Shown: positions 928 through 8,055 of the stretch, one piece after another
Numbering within the stretch: position 1 is the stretch's first letter
How the letters are laid out: every line of letters begins with the position of its first letter
Assembly (NCBI RefSeq): GCF_018327705.1
Contig: NZ_BNEM01000001.1
Span: forward strand, 1,612,001 to 1,676,000
Origin: Catellatospora sp. TT07R-123
Lineage (GTDB): Bacteria; Actinomycetota; Actinomycetes; Mycobacteriales; Micromonosporaceae
DNA: 64,000 nt
Direction of reading: 5' to 3'
Program-made: the position numbers and the translations under genes
The notes under the pieces: model-generated
What the model saw: the letters and a program-made list of their open reading frames with translations, nothing else
Databases searched by the model: none
Told to the model about the DNA's origin: nothing

Positions 928-2445
928 TTAGGAGTTCAGGCGGGCCAGCACCGCGTCGAGGCGCTCGGTCTCCACGTGGGCGATGTCCCCGCCGGAGTCG
1001 AGGGCCGCGTTCAGCAGGAACGCCAGGGAGGTGCCGTACACCGGGACGGCTGCGGGGGCTTCGGCCATCCGCTCCAGGGGTGCCGGGGTGCCGTCGGGGT
1101 TCTGCTGCGCCACCGGGCGGACGGCGGCCCAGTACGTCGTCTCGGTCCTGCCGTCGACGAGATACCCCAGGACACGGCCGTCGGGCAGGTCGAACACCGC
1201 CATCAGGAAGTCGTACCGGTCGGCGGCACCGTAGTCGATCACACGCAGCAGCTCCGGCGGCACCAGCCGCCACGCCCCGCCGAACAGCGACACCGCGCCG
1301 AGGCGCCGGTACAGGGCCACGACCTCCCGCGTGCCGGTGTACCAGTCGTGGGTCAGCGGCTCGATGTCGTGCTCGGCCGCGATCCGGTCGAGCACGTCGT
1401 CGATGTCGACCGGTGCCGGAGCCAGGTGCCAGCCCGCGACCGGCCGCAGCGCCCCGTCGCCGTCCTGGACCACGCCGACCAGGCCGCCGTGCAGCGCCAC
1501 CGCCCGGTTGTCCCCGCCGACCCGGTCGTTGACCTCGACGACGGCGCGGGACAGGATCGCGGGCACCTCGCTCGTCCGCACCCCCGGCCCGTGGTAGCGG
1601 CCCTCGTCGGCGGCGATGTCGCGCGGCTCGTCCAGCGGCAGTTCCAGCAGCGGATTCGGATGGTCGAGCACCCCGAGCCGGTCCAGGTACGGGTAGAACC
1701 GCGCCGCCCAGCCGGTGGCCACCTCACCGCCGTACGCGTCGCCGGGGTTGTAGATCCGCCGCCAGAACGCCCGGTCGACGTCGCCGCCCGCGGCCCGGAC
1801 GAACTGGTCGGCGATCGGGGCCAGCGACCGGCACCACCCGTCGAGGTCGAACGCCGCCAGCCGGTCGACGCGGGCCCTGATCCGGCGCCAGTCCTCGACC
1901 GTGCCGGTCAGGGTGATCGACGGGATGCCGCACACGCACACCGCCCACTGCGAGAAGTAGGGCGAGTACGCGTCGAGCAGCACGATCCGCCCGGCCATCC
2001 GCTCCACGTCGGTGCTGGTGGAGAAGTCGCACTCGAACAGGTCGGCGTCGGTGACCTCGGCGGCGAGCAGTTTGCCGAACTGCTCGGCCAGGTGCTGCCA
2101 CGACGCGGCGTCGACGGGCAGCGGCCCGCCGACCGGCACGGTCAGCCGCTTGCGTCCGGGGTGGCCGACCAGCATCGGCCGCAGCCGTTCCGCGTGCAGC
2201 CGTACGTGCTGGGCCACCCCGCGGGCGATGGTGAGCCAGACCGCGTCCGGCGACAACACCAGCGGCCGGTGCTCGGCGAACGCCCTGGCCACGGCGGACA
2301 GCAGCGGGTCGACACCGTCTGGCTCCAGCAGCGCCCGGTCCGGATCGCCGCCGATCAGCAGCGCCTCCGGGTACAGGCCGGACAGCCGCACGGTGGGCAG
2401 CGCGCCGGTCACCGGCTCGACGTCGTCGACGCGGAAGGTCGCCAT
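928..2445 (-). CDS. DUF4419 domain protein
   Basis: 505 residues, ATG start. The N-terminal region, with its GVDPLLSAVARAFAEHRPLVL segment followed by SPDAVWLTIARGVAQHV, matches the conserved opening of DUF4419 proteins, large soluble proteins of unknown function found in bacteria and fungi. The central section contains the typical FECDFSTST and YFSQW stretches. There is no signal peptide or membrane segment. It lies 42 bp downstream of the gyrase-like gene at 2488-3780 on the same strand, so the two may be cotranscribed. The family call is good; no activity can be proposed. Confidence 0.8.
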   Translation of the reverse strand: MATFRVDDVEPVTGALPTVRLSGLYPEALLIGGDPDRALLEPDGVDPLLSAVARAFAEHRPLVLSPDAVWLTIARGVAQHVRLHAERLRPMLVGHPGRKRLTVPVGGPLPVDAASWQHLAEQFGKLLAAEVTDADLFECDFSTSTDVERMAGRIVLLDAYSPYFSQWAVCVCGIPSITLTGTVEDWRRIRARVDRLAAFDLDGWCRSLAPIADQFVRAAGGDVDRAFWRRIYNPGDAYGGEVATGWAARFYPYLDRLGVLDHPNPLLELPLDEPRDIAADEGRYHGPGVRTSEVPAILSRAVVEVNDRVGGDNRAVALHGGLVGVVQDGDGALRPVAGWHLAPAPVDIDDVLDRIAAEHDIEPLTHDWYTGTREVVALYRRLGAVSLFGGAWRLVPPELLRVIDYGAADRYDFLMAVFDLPDGRVLGYLVDGRTETTYWAAVRPVAQQNPDGTPAPLERMAEAPAAVPVYGTSLAFLLNAALDSGGDIAHVETERLDAVLARLNS

Positions 2446-2487: not shown

Positions 2488-3780
2488 TCAGGCGCCGGGC
2501 AGGCGGCTGCCCGGCGGCAGCCAGTCCGGGTCCAGTTCGAACACGAACCGCACCCCGTCGGGACGGTCGACGCGCCCCAGCACCTCCGCCGGGCCCTGCG
2601 CAACACCCTCGACGAACTGCTGCCGGTACGCCACCCCGTCGATCCACTGGTGGATCGACATCCGGAGGCTGACAGCCGCGGCGAACAGCACGCCGAGGCT
2701 GCTCGCGTGCTTGATGCGCCACGTGATCGCGTGTCCGTCGTCGCTGAACGGCCTGCCGAGCCGCTCGGGTATCTCGGCCGTCAGCGTCAGCGGTTCCTCC
2801 ACCTGCACCGCCGCGCCGTTCTCGGTGAACTCCGCCAGCAACCTCGGCAGCAGTTCGGGGCTGGTGCGACCCGCCCCGAGGTACATGGACGGACGCCTTC
2901 GGATCGCCGCCGCACCCTCCAGCACGACGATCAACGCGGCGTCGTACGACGGCCTGCCCTGGGCGTCGACCGGCTCCGGAACCCGTACCGCCCGCCACTG
3001 CTCCCGGTCGGCGGGCAGGCCCGCCGCCGTGAACACCGCGGCAGCCTGCGGCCGGGTGCCGTCCCAGAGGTCGTCGCGGTCGGCCAGCAGCTGAGCGAAT
3101 GCGCTCTGCGGACCCGTCGCCTGCCGGTCGGGCGGCAGCCCATCCGGAAAGGCCACCGGCAGGTACGGCCCGAACGCCACGGACCCGTGCAGCTCCGCGG
3201 CGGCGCACGCAGCCGGGTACAGGCGCCCGAAGTCGCTCACCCGCTCGCAGACCGTGCGCAGCAGCACCTGGTGCGGCGGCTCCTCCCACGGTGCCGGTGG
3301 CCGGGAGCGGGGCGCGAACGGTTCGGAGAAACTCTCGTCGAGGGCCCGGGGCGTCTGGGCCGTCCTGACCAGCAGTTTCACCGCCGTCGGATCGTCGGCC
3401 AGCGCCGGGGCCAGGGCGGCGCAGACCCGCACCGCCAGGCGCGGGTCGTCCAGCCACTCGCGCGGCGCCTCACCCAGGTCACCCAGGCCGATGACGTAGG
3501 AGGCGCACTCCCAGCGGTCCGCCGCCGCGGCGGCGGCTTCGCGGTGGTATGCGACGATCTCGGCGCGGCGGTCGGCCAGGGCAGGATCGCGCACCAGCAC
3601 CACCAGCGCGGCCGCGGTCATGGCCCGGGTCCGGGCCGGCCACTCGGGCGGCACCGGCCAGAGCGCGCCGAACGCCGCGCCGGCGGCGACCCCGCACAGC
3701 GCCTCCAGCTGCGCGGGCATGTCGGACGCCACGCCGTACGGGTGGAGCAGCCGGTCCCAGCGGACCTCATCAATCGCCAC
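2488..3780 (-). CDS. Degenerate GyrB-like (GHKL-derived) protein with helical N-terminal region
   Basis: 430 residues, GTG start. Residues 1-270 are Ala-rich helices resembling HEAT-like repeats. From residue 284 it follows the gyrase B ATPase order: IRRRPSMYLG (293-302) corresponds to the VRKRPGMYIG of GyrB, and SLGVLFAAAVSLRMSIHQW..YRQQFVEGV with DGVRFVFELDPDWL (361-421) corresponds to the GyrB stretch running from GVSVVNALS to TVRFWPD. The parts of GyrB that bind ATP are missing: there is no VVDNxIDE helix and no DDGRGIP loop, and about 50 residues are absent. It is therefore probably a non-catalytic structural derivative. The function is unknown; it pairs with the DUF4419 gene downstream. 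Confidence 0.6.
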   Translation of the reverse strand: MAIDEVRWDRLLHPYGVASDMPAQLEALCGVAAGAAFGALWPVPPEWPARTRAMTAAALVVLVRDPALADRRAEIVAYHREAAAAAADRWECASYVIGLGDLGEAPREWLDDPRLAVRVCAALAPALADDPTAVKLLVRTAQTPRALDESFSEPFAPRSRPPAPWEEPPHQVLLRTVCERVSDFGRLYPAACAAAELHGSVAFGPYLPVAFPDGLPPDRQATGPQSAFAQLLADRDDLWDGTRPQAAAVFTAAGLPADREQWRAVRVPEPVDAQGRPSYDAALIVVLEGAAAIRRRPSMYLGAGRTSPELLPRLLAEFTENGAAVQVEEPLTLTAEIPERLGRPFSDDGHAITWRIKHASSLGVLFAAAVSLRMSIHQWIDGVAYRQQFVEGVAQGPAEVLGRVDRPDGVRFVFELDPDWLPPGSRLPGA

Positions 3781-3853: not shown

Positions 3854-4651
3854 ATGCTGACCCTGCCGCTGCTGCGGCCGCTCATCGAGCAGGCGTGGGG
3901 GCCGGACACCTGCGATCCGGCCGACCTGGACCACTGGCGCGCCGACAATCCGGCCCACGGCCAGTGCGGTGTCACGGCCATGGTCCTGCACGACCTGCTC
4001 GGCGGCGACCTGCTGCTCGGCGAGGTGCACGAGGACGGTCGGCGGACCGGGTTCCACTACTGGAACCGGCTGCCCGACGGCGCCGAGGTCGATCTCACCC
4101 GGCAGCAGTTCGGCCCGGCCGAGACCGTCACCGACGGCGCGGTCGTGGTCCGGCCGCCCGACGCGCCCCGGCGCTGCCGGGGCCAGTATCAGCTGCTCCG
4201 GCACCGGGTCACCGCGCAGCTGACCGCACCGGCGCCGGTGCCGGGGCCGCCGGTGCGGATCGCGCTGGCCCTGCTGGTCGACCCCGCCGGTGCGGTGCTG
4301 CTGAATCTGCGCAGCCGCGACGCGCGGGCCGAACCCGGCCAGTGGAGCCTGCCCGGCGGGCACGTCGAGGCCGGGGAGACCCCGGCGCAGGCGGCCCGGC
4401 GCGAGCTGGCCGAGGAGACCGGGCTGGCCCCGGCCGGTCCGCTGCACCCGTTCTGGCACGACCTGCGGCCCGACCTCACCGGCGGTGCGAGCGCTGTCGA
4501 GCTGCACGTGTACCGGGGCGACGCGACAGCCGCGGCGGACGTGACCGTGGGCGAGGGCGAGGCGGCGCGGTTCGTGCCGTACGCCGAGGTGACCGAACTG
4601 GACCTGAGCCCCACCGCCGCTGCCGTGCTCTGGCGCCTGCGCCACCGGTGA
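3854..4651 (+). CDS. YunG-domain / NUDIX hydrolase fusion
   Basis: 265 residues, ATG start. Residues 1-120 resemble Yun[21 protein letters not shown], then [21 protein letters not shown] and EVDLTRQQF. YunG has a papain-like Cys/His arrangement (here GQC and FHYW), but its activity is not established. Residues 138-265 are a NUDIX domain with a complete box: GGHVEAGE, seven residues, then RELAEETGL, which binds metal and cleaves nucleoside diphosphate-linked substrates. The substrate cannot be read from the sequence. The protein is cytoplasmic. It is transcribed alone, convergent with the gene at 4697. Confidence 0.8.
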
Positions 4652-6018: not shown

Positions 6019-6258
6019 ATGACTGACGTTGTGCAGACCCGCGGTGACGGCCATGACGAGATCCTGGCCCTGGACACCACCGGCAACGGCCAACCCGACC
6101 TGTGGGCGATCGACACCGACGGCGACGGCAAACCCGACCTGTTCCAGTCCGACACCGACGGCGACGGCAACCCCGACGTCACCATGGTCGACCTGACCCA
6201 GGACGGCACCATGGACGTCATCGTCGACGGCGACGGCGGCCACCCCCTGACCCCCTAG
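6019..6258 (+). CDS. 79-residue Asp/Gly repeat microprotein (EF-hand-like calcium loops)
   Basis: The product is built from a roughly 13-residue repeat: TTGNGQPDLWAID, TDGDGKPDLFQSD, TDGDGNPDVTMVD, LTQDGTMDVIVDG. Each has the DxDGDGxxD pattern of calcium-binding loops in dockerins and EF-hands, but without flanking helices. The repeats pack end to end as in thrombospondin type 3 or FG-GAP calcium loops. There is no signal peptide, so it seems cytoplasmic, which is unusual for such loops. It starts 40 bp after the methyltransferase stop and could share its transcript. Calcium binding is a strong inference; the role is unknown. Confidence 0.7.
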   Translation: MTDVVQTRGDGHDEILALDTTGNGQPDLWAIDTDGDGKPDLFQSDTDGDGNPDVTMVDLTQDGTMDVIVDGDGGHPLTP

Positions 6259-6381: not shown

Positions 6382-8055
6382 ATGTCGGTATCGCCCGCTG
6401 CCCCGCTGCCCGCCGAGTTCGACGCGTTCGTCCGGGCCAGGACCGGCGCACTGCTGCGCGCGGCCTACTTCCTCACCGGTGACCGGCACCTGGCCGAGGA
6501 CCTGGTCCAGTCGGCGCTGGCCCGTACGCACCGCAGCTGGCCGAGCCTGCACGCGGCGGGCGCGGCCGACGCGTACACCCGCAAGACCATGTACCACCTG
6601 CAGGTGTCGTGGTGGCGGCGGCGCCGGGTCGCCGAGACGCTGACCGACGAGCTGCCCGCCCGCACCGGCGCCGTCGCCGACCCGGCCGACCAGACCGCGC
6701 TCCAGGTCACGCTGCGGTCGATGCTGCTGCGGCTGCCCGCCCGGCAGCGGGCCGTGCTGGTGCTGCGGTTCTTCGACGACCTGACCGAGGAGCAGACCGC
6801 GCAGGCGCTCGGGGTGACCGTCGGCACGGTCAAGAGCCAGACCGCCAAGGCGCTGGCCAAGCTGCGGGTGCTCGCCCCGCAGCTGCGCGACTTCTACGCC
6901 GGCTCCGCCGACGAGATCAGGCCGGTCGACCTGCGGGAGCGGGCGGTGGTCTCGTCGCGGCAGCTGGCGGCCCGGCGCACCGCCGCCGCCGCGTCGGCCG
7001 CGGCGGTGCTGGTCGTGGCCGTGGTCGCCTTCCTCGCGCTGCGCGGCGGCGGCGGGTCCGTGCCGCCCCTGAACCCGACGCCGTCGGCTGCCCCCTCCCC
7101 GACCGCCCTGCCCACGCCCGCGGCGGCCGCCCCCACCGACCTGGGCCCGTTCGCGTCGGCGACGCTGACGCTGCCGGAGTGGACCGGGCCGCGGGCGGCC
7201 GAGTGCGCCTCCGGGCGGATCACGCTCGACCGCGACGGCGTCGCCGACAGCGCCGCGCTGCCGGTATGGGTGGTCGAGCAGGTCGCATCCGACGTGGACG
7301 GCGACGGCACGAAGGAGTCCGTCGCGACGTTCATGTGCGGCGAGGGGCCGGAGTCGCCGGGCACGCAGGTGGTCGCGTTCCGCCGGGACGGGGCCGGGCG
7401 GCTGGCCACGGTCGGCCGGGTCGTCGCGACGGGCCCCACGCTGCTGATGATCCACCACATCGAGGCCGCCGACCCGGGGATCGCCGTCGAGCTGTCCAAG
7501 GACTACACCGACACCGGCCAGAGCAACGTGCCGTTCCAGCGGCGCACGTACCGGCTGGTGGACGGCGCGTTCCGGCAGGTGGCCGGGCCGACGTCGTGGC
7601 CGGCGCACCCCGAGCACGCCGCGCTGGCCCTCGACACCACCCACGTGGCGCTGCGACCGGCCGCGGGCGGCCGCTACGCCGGCCAGTTGTCGGTCGTCGT
7701 CGACAACAGCGGCACGCTCGGCGTGGACCGGCTGCGGCTCACGCTGCACCTGCAACCGTGGCTGCGCCCGGCGGGGCCGGGCTGGGACGGCTGCACCCGC
7801 GAGGACTTCGGCGCCGACGGGGTGAACGTGGTGTGCACCCTGCTCGGCCCCGAGGCGGGTGCGAAGGTCCGGGCCGAGTTCACCTTCGCCGTCGACCGGC
7901 TCCCGTCGGCTGTGCCCAGCCCCAGCCCCAGCCTCGCGGACGAGATCTCCCCGCTGTTCTCGGCGCGGATCGACCAGCTGCGGCCGTACACGTACGAGGA
8001 GCCGGTCTCGTGGGAGAAGTCGTTCGTGGTCGTCGTGGCCGGCTCAGCCGGGTGA
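6382..8055 (+). CDS. SigE-family RNA polymerase sigma factor fused to a membrane segment and extracytoplasmic domain
   Basis: 557 residues from the ATG at 6382. An open frame reaches back to 6277, but homologous sigma factors start with this FDAFVRARTGALLRAAYFLTG region. Sigma region 2 spans about residues 11-80 (DRHLAEDLVQSAL, then the WWRR end). Region 4 spans about 107-165 (LRLPARQRAVLVLRFFDDL, then the LGVTVGTVKSQTAKALAKL helix-turn-helix). A hydrophobic helix at 198-220 and a Pro/Ser/Ala-rich linker lead to a C-terminal domain of about 310 residues that should lie outside the cell. The architecture suggests a membrane-tethered sigma factor. The stop overlaps the convergent GNAT gene by 12 bp. 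Confidence 0.8.
   Translation: MSVSPAAPLPAEFDAFVRARTGALLRAAYFLTGDRHLAEDLVQSALARTHRSWPSLHAAGAADAYTRKTMYHLQVSWWRRRRVAETLTDELPARTGAVADPADQTALQVTLRSMLLRLPARQRAVLVLRFFDDLTEEQTAQALGVTVGTVKSQTAKALAKLRVLAPQLRDFYAGSADEIRPVDLRERAVVSSRQLAARRTAAAASAAAVLVVAVVAFLALRGGGGSVPPLNPTPSAAPSPTALPTPAAAAPTDLGPFASATLTLPEWTGPRAAECASGRITLDRDGVADSAALPVWVVEQVASDVDGDGTKESVATFMCGEGPESPGTQVVAFRRDGAGRLATVGRVVATGPTLLMIHHIEAADPGIAVELSKDYTDTGQSNVPFQRRTYRLVDGAFRQVAGPTSWPAHPEHAALALDTTHVALRPAAGGRYAGQLSVVVDNSGTLGVDRLRLTLHLQPWLRPAGPGWDGCTREDFGADGVNVVCTLLGPEAGAKVRAEFTFAVDRLPSAVPSPSPSLADEISPLFSARIDQLRPYTYEEPVSWEKSFVVVVAGSAG

Follow-up and report, generated by a model that had tools for sequence, protein, structure and literature searches.

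A GyrB-derived domain without the ATP site, joined to HEAT-type repeats in Catellatospora, and its actinobacterial relatives

What use might a cell make of a gyrase B ATPase domain that has parted with the residues needed for ATP? The question is raised by a gene within a 64,000-nucleotide stretch of the Catellatospora sp. TT07R-123 genome (here called the window). The gene occupies 2488..3780 on the minus strand, a point on which the original prediction was silent, starts with GTG, and encodes a protein of 430 aa, with known homologues, that consists of HEAT-type repeats and a pseudo-GyrB domain. The host genome (G000) measures 9.17 Mb in two contigs, and three other genomes of its genus (G001, G004, and G010) carry four homologous genes, with 52–62% identity.

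A Pfam scan of the window protein, with the HATPase_c model included, returned nothing at E ≤ 10, and the NCBIfam gyrB/parE models matched it weakly, the best one at 4e-6 with 25.6 bits, where the cut-off stands at 740. Searched with phmmer, the PDB sequences gave 45 matches at E ≤ 10, all of them GyrB or ParE (the B subunit of topoisomerase IV), the best at E 1.7e-4. A tblastn search of 7.3 Gb of plasmid DNA with the C-terminal 150 aa matched four records. The top match covers 91% of the query at E 4e-8 and is unannotated; the remaining three, annotated as gyrB, cover 93–98% of it at E 1e-4 to 6e-3. A viral origin was rejected, as 27 pattern matches from a viral_contigs scan included 0 relatives. 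When six HEAT-fused domains were compared as a profile with 15 GyrBs, hhalign gave a Prob of 98.8 and an E of 1e-16. An AlphaFold2 (AF2) model of the whole window protein, made with 24 sequences, reached a pLDDT of 84 and a pTM of 0.83; with this model Foldseek ranked GyrB first (E 9.7e-7), and VIA aligned it to GyrB/ParE structures with Z scores of 12.2–13.2 over 133–155 residues among the 50 matches listed. In one such alignment, residues 275–427 of the model lie on residues 4–185 of GyrB, and the protein stops at about GyrB residue 185, with no transducer, TOPRIM, or C-terminal domains. The model of a stand-alone member of the family (pLDDT 83) matched the GyrB 24-kDa subdomain with Z scores of 16.0–17.2 among the 50 matches listed, the best covering 175 residues.

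Together, hhalign, Foldseek, and VIA place the pseudo-GyrB ATPase-like domain at residues 278–421 (2518..2949, minus strand), and both hhalign and the predicted model indicate a GHKL (Bergerat) fold with GyrB-type topology. A profile search with no GHKL match had been named in advance as the outcome that would speak against the original prediction; hhalign and structure comparison both match GyrB, and the structure prediction proposed at the same time yielded a model that resembles GyrB at Z 12–13. Chance similarity to GyrB was considered and ruled out, as profile, structure, and tblastn results are concordant. That the C-terminal domain descends from GyrB, namely from its N-terminal ATPase subdomain, is well supported on these comparisons. 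With that 24-kDa subdomain (TIGR01059, PF02518) pseudo-GyrB has in common the fold and the order of its elements, as well as the RxRPxMYxG motif, the ALS helix end, and the DG...Q hairpin. It differs from GyrB in lacking Asn46, DxGRGIP, Lys103, and GGLHGVG, and the window domain further differs in its fusion to HEAT repeats, in the missing transducer, TOPRIM, and tail, and in an NCBIfam score (25.6 bits) that falls far below the cut-off of 740.

The extent of the loss was assessed by aligning 34 GyrBs with 48 relatives of the domain, three of which, L077 included, are intermediates; five fragments or duplicates (L171, L183, L186, L187, and L189) and four copies from Streptomyces that are split or incomplete (L108, L109, L113, and L114) were left out of both the residue table and the tree. 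Residue numbers follow what we take to be E. coli GyrB numbering. Four residues present in 34/34 GyrBs are retained to very different degrees in the relatives: Asn46 in 1/48, Glu42 in 8/48, Asp73 in 26/48, and Lys103 in 0/48. The GGLHGVG columns are gaps in 46–47 of the 48. In the window protein itself Arg and Glu are aligned at the Glu42 and Asn46 sites, DxGxG is absent from its expected site, and the stretch SDDGHAI is not aligned with the DDGRGIP loop. The alignment bears out the claim that the Asn helix and the DDGRGIP loop have been lost, and to these must be added the lid with Lys103 and GGLHGVG, which the original prediction did not mention. Over the 45 rows that remain when the three intermediates are set aside, 35 of the 59 GyrB-invariant columns are lost and 16 kept, a column being called lost if the residue persists in <20% of the rows (gaps counted as loss) and kept if it does so in ≥70%. 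Most of the lost columns belong to the elements that make up the nucleotide pocket of the GyrB structure: the lid, the DxGxG loop, and the Asn helix, whose catalytic Asn activates water.

Retained in the relatives are Arg20 (46/48), Pro23 (45/48), Met25 (40/48), and Tyr26 (41/48), along with the ALS helix end and the DG...Q hairpin. The IRRRPSMYLG motif that had been noticed in the C-terminal part is sited at residues 293–302 of the window protein, with RRRPSMYLG (residues 294–302; 2875..2901, minus strand) being a GyrB scaffold motif kept across relatives, and the later GyrB stretch, SLGVLFAAAVSLRMSIHQW...DGVRFVFELDPDW, is likewise found in the sequence. That a GyrB/GHKL fold has been re-used without its catalytic elements agrees with the profile and structure matches and with the disappearance of the ATP residues, and the domain is very probably a pseudo-ATPase. 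The relatives have also gained residues. A Trp near GyrB position 135 (Trp379 of the window protein; 2644..2646, minus strand) occurs in 45/45 pseudo-GyrBs versus 0/34 GyrBs, and a Pro that opens the Asn helix and a Phe before the DxGxG loop each occur in 41/45 versus 0/34. Since these newly conserved residues are common to the stand-alone and the HEAT-fused forms described below, they suggest repurposing of the domain and not mere decay.

Residues 1–270 (2971..3780, minus strand) had been described as helices unrelated to GyrB. Helical they are in the AF2 model, but the description was incomplete: the region is a HEAT-type repeat domain, which stands alone in relatives. It is 37–39% identical to the HEAT proteins of two relatives and 32% to that of a third, and one such protein, L037, matches Pfam HEAT at 3e-5 (24.2 bits, cut-off 23.5). 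Pfam gave no match for the window protein itself or for the longer relative scanned; it is homology to L037 and the helical model that point to tandem helical hairpins of the HEAT type. A HEAT profile of the region, built from eight sequences with the window's included, matches the window protein at 1–37 and then at 152–402 only. About 114 HEAT-profile positions are thus absent, at an internal deletion placed by profile and alignment at approximately 3664..3675 (minus strand), which makes the window copy a shortened member. L070, L072, and L074 match the profile over all or nearly all of its length, and only ~30 positions are missing from L071 and L073. The order of a HEAT domain followed by a GyrB-like domain is found in ten members that form one clade (see below), six of which contributed to the profile and four of which are independent, with HEAT matches at E 1e-36 to 7e-112. 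L165 has most of the HEAT profile and L160 and L166 its second half only, all three in the same ORF as the GyrB-like part, and in L164 the HEAT part lies in another frame than the GyrB-like part. The actinobacterial HEAT proteins that stand alone are homologous to the window N-terminal domain (32–39% identity) and differ from the window protein in that two of them, L037 and L038, lack a pseudo-GyrB domain and the window copy lacks the ~114 positions. On Streptomyces plasmids, six of the eight matching records annotate the gene as ‘HEAT repeat domain-containing protein’.

By sequence comparison, then, the family is one of actinobacterial pseudo-GyrBs in two forms, stand-alone and HEAT-fused. 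The stand-alone form, of ~200 aa, has matches in 18/295 Streptomyces genomes, a few of them partial or split, and occurs elsewhere in Rugosimonospora africana, Streptomyces sp. MUM 203J, a Kitasatospora plasmid, and Micromonosporaceae. Catellatospora has five genes of the HEAT-fused form, the window's included, and the form also occurs in Hamadaea tsunoensis and four other Micromonosporaceae genomes. Both forms together account for the 32/354 Micromonosporaceae genomes with a match >70 bits, the next match there being an ORF of GyrB length at 53.9 bits. In a tree of 55 rows, the HEAT-fused members make up a clade of 10 (support 99/95) and the stand-alone members one of 35 (100/99). Grouping of the fused clade with GyrB, which would speak against a single origin, has support of 88/75, at a place where long branches meet. 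By hhalign the fused and stand-alone domains match each other (99.3, E 4e-20) more strongly than the fused domains match GyrB (98.8, 1e-16). We tentatively favor descent of both from one degenerate ancestor because of the shared Trp, Pro, and Phe and this stronger mutual score.

Some loci lie between GyrB and the pseudo-GyrBs. L161 (4383-5849) and L188 (5172-5915) are intermediates that have kept a DNGxG loop and lost Asn46. A Streptomyces ORF of 286 aa, L077 (8324-9184, plus strand), keeps DDGRG, has His at position 46 and a longer tail, and falls inside the GyrB group in the tree, apart from the pseudo-GyrB family. HEAT-type ORFs near L108 (weak, E 0.004) and near L188 (where the HEAT gene looks partial) are hints that linkage to HEAT genes may have preceded the fusion. 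Some relatives are broken or split, namely L139 (an in-frame stop), L164 (frame), and L109. A short GyrB-like ORF of Hamadaea, L137 (1123-2013, plus strand), judged by eye, keeps both the Asn box and DDGRG, and its product is a further small GyrB-derived protein that may still bind ATP.

Most of the pairs tested appear to be under purifying selection, a conclusion supported by dN/dS values that are rough, as dS is high in several pairs. Among stand-alone members, with 10 of 78 possible pairs tested, dN/dS was 0.24–0.40 in nine and 0.89 in one closely similar pair. For the GyrB-like part of the fused members (15 pairs) it ranged from 0.17 to 0.75, the lowest values (0.17–0.32) being those among L071, L073, and L074 of Catellatospora and the highest, 0.75, that of the window copy with L070, its nearest relative, which is near weak constraint. 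With its shortened HEAT domain and this weaker constraint, the window copy may be on its way to loss.

The gene has a close neighbor. On the same strand, 42 bp downstream, lies the gene for a DUF4419 protein of 505 aa (928..2445, minus strand; Pfam PF14388, E 1e-64), and the original prediction regarded the two as a pair. The neighbor is real but the pairing is not conserved, as a survey of homologues found a DUF4419 homologue near only one of 56 family loci, that of the window itself. DUF4419 homologues are present in 11/14 genomes searched (the window's included) and in relatives are sited elsewhere, and DUF4419 is ruled out on these grounds as a partner; co-transcription of the two genes is possible in this genome alone.

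Nor was any conserved operon partner or recurrent toxin found when 646 neighboring ORFs, taken from heuristic gene calls, were clustered: no neighbor family occurs at more than 8/56 loci. Pfam scans of neighbors, which covered 180 of the 190 ORFs of one set (six large ones being scanned later and four small ones omitted) plus one ORF of another set and excluded part of the Micromonosporaceae loci, were tallied twice, and neither Imm nor SUKH was among the 25 commonest of the 114 and 106 families. Ten small neighboring ORFs picked by eye as possible immunity genes matched no Pfam immunity family. The copy on the Kitasatospora plasmid (L139, 3343-8630), a stand-alone one, does lie amid SMI1/KNR4, Imm7, hypothetical, and DUF6210 genes, and is broken by one in-frame stop. 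Large conflict-type genes were seen within 5 kb of 4/18 Streptomyces loci, a raw count without control loci: caspase-domain genes near stand-alone copies at L100 (10825-13545) and L103 (3548-5731), a CHAT-domain gene 0.2 kb from the copy at L114 (8003-10957), and an RHS-repeat gene 3.1 kb from the copy at L113 (1-4683). The pseudo-GyrB copies of L113 and L114 match the query in part only. Two EACC1 matches also occur among the neighbors and, with the caspase, CHAT, and RHS genes, hint, short of proof, at conflict systems. Three stand-alone HEAT genes on Streptomyces plasmids have no neighbor annotated as an immunity protein, and a zeta-toxin family gene sits at the margin of one of the three neighborhoods. 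Few neighbors recur close to the gene. They include, judged by eye, a DinB-like ORF, separated from it by 17–20 bp at three Catellatospora loci that are close relatives, and a small monooxygenase-like ORF, at a distance of 31–33 bp from the stand-alone gene at L076 of Streptomyces (7609-7935) and at L180 (4981-5301) and L181 (5862-6182) of near-identical Micromonosporaceae, with a different orientation in L076.

Three further observations concern the window and its genome. Divergent from the pseudo-GyrB gene and 73 bp from it is an ORF (3854-4648, plus strand) that, judged by eye, resembles a NUDIX hydrolase carrying an additional domain at its N terminus; four other loci have ORFs of this sort within 5 kb. 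A 79-aa ORF at 6019-6255 (plus strand) consists mostly of DxDGDGxxD-like repeats, calcium-binding in appearance. G000 has two diverged full-length gyrB genes, at C1:4564260-4566188 (L131) and C2:2607954-2609876 (L136), both above the NCBIfam cut-off and 74% identical in their N-terminal parts, and G001, G004, and G010 have one gyrB each. A second gyrB can signal resistance to a gyrase-directed antibiotic.

What might such a protein do? For its function we put forward, with the odds about evenly poised, a HEAT protein whose GyrB-derived pseudo-ATPase acts as an ATP-independent decoy or immunity-type binder. As we picture it, a GyrB ATPase subdomain has become a pseudo-ATPase that lacks the Asn, the DxGxG loop, and the lid but keeps the fold, the N-terminal segment, and RxRPxMY; the new conserved Trp, Pro, and Phe suggest a new use; and the HEAT scaffold would hold out a module that, we infer, binds without ATP. 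The module would bind an agent, probably a toxin, aimed at the ATPase domain of GyrB, and gyrase would be spared. That the partner is an agent of this kind is a tentative guess.

Several observations lead us to an immunity-type reading. The distribution of the genes is sporadic and accessory (18/295 Streptomyces genomes), the plasmid copy adjoins SMI1/KNR4, Imm7, and DUF6210 genes, and the RHS, CHAT, and caspase genes near 4/18 Streptomyces loci lend a leaning only, given the lack of a control. HEAT repeats, moreover, are listed among immunity proteins, actinobacterial ones included (PMC3482391); in the text searched of that paper ‘GyrB’ and ‘gyrase’ have 0 occurrences. A precedent is offered by the immunity protein Cpi1, which is reported to vie with the ATPase domain of ParE/GyrB for binding to the toxin Cpe1 and to have no significant structural homologues (PMC12136450); it provides the logic for a decoy, a protein that occupies the GyrB-binding face of a toxin. 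Like the immunity proteins of polymorphic toxins, pseudo-GyrBs are sporadic accessory genes, with one copy in an immunity-gene cluster; by way of difference, the survey of 56 loci brought up no recurrent toxin neighbor that could be cognate. The decoy reading is weakened by that want of a conserved toxin or immunity partner over 56 loci, and equally because the sole immunity-rich neighborhood carries a broken copy, the copies next to RHS and CHAT genes (L113 and L114) match the query only partly, the plasmid HEAT genes have no annotated immunity neighbors, and the GyrB-like part of the window copy has a dN/dS of 0.75.

The main rival is a modulator of gyrase, which would use the retained N-terminal arm to pair with true GyrB and would cap or poison the ATP gate, with the HEAT repeats in a regulatory role. 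The arm is better kept than the pocket, Tyr5 being Y in 30/48 and F in 6/48 relatives and Ile10 being I or L in 42/48, compared with 1/48 for Asn46 (gaps at Tyr5 in six rows and at Ile10 in four stem partly from cropping there), and a full-length GyrB for it to pair with was present in 5/5 genomes checked. The domain, however, ends short of the transducer, and the 24-kDa fragment of GyrB is not known to dimerise alone; the lid, which in GyrB is part of the dimer contact, is missing, and the arm may have been retained for structural reasons only. We consider such pairing unlikely.

We would give no greater weight to the view that what was captured behind a HEAT gene is an old piece of gyrB, decaying and now functionless in this genome. 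The internal HEAT deletion of the window copy, its dN/dS of 0.75 with L070 in the GyrB-like part, and the broken or split relatives L139, L164, and L109 are what such decay would leave behind, yet the window ORF is open, newly conserved residues extend across the family, and dN/dS is 0.17–0.32 among L071, L073, and L074 and 0.24–0.40 in nine of ten stand-alone pairs. Very unlikely, in our estimate, is a rebuilt pocket that still binds nucleotide or another small ligand, such as an aminocoumarin-like drug. The fold is retained, Asp73 and Thr165 are kept in 26/48 and 35/48 relatives, and the conserved Trp adjoins position 136, presumably part of the aminocoumarin site of GyrB; but the lid is missing, and in the HEAT-fused clade Asp73 is kept in 0/10 and Thr165 has been replaced by Tyr in 7/10, Val in 2/10, and Phe in 1/10.

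We regard these proteins as a pseudoenzyme family. Comparison lends good support to their descent from GyrB and to the loss of the ATP site, and their function is what we infer. Among the open-access literature matches listed, judged by titles and the starts of abstracts, no paper describes a pseudo-GyrB family, and we know of few descriptions of degenerate GHKL-fold members from bacteria. Here the GyrB scaffold has been kept, the ATP site dropped, and new conserved residues acquired across two clades in at least two actinobacterial families, Micromonosporaceae and Streptomycetaceae, and in annotation such pseudo-GyrBs could be mistaken for fragments of gyrase B. If the protein modulates gyrase, it would represent a new kind of topology control. 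It is conceivable, though doubtful, that the actinobacterial pseudo-GyrBs, with one branch mounted on HEAT repeats, are decoys that absorb protein or small-molecule weapons directed against gyrase. Were that so, they would mark gyrase as the target of unknown weapons, and the family would point the way to toxins or antibiotics of soil actinomycetes that are directed at gyrase and still await discovery.
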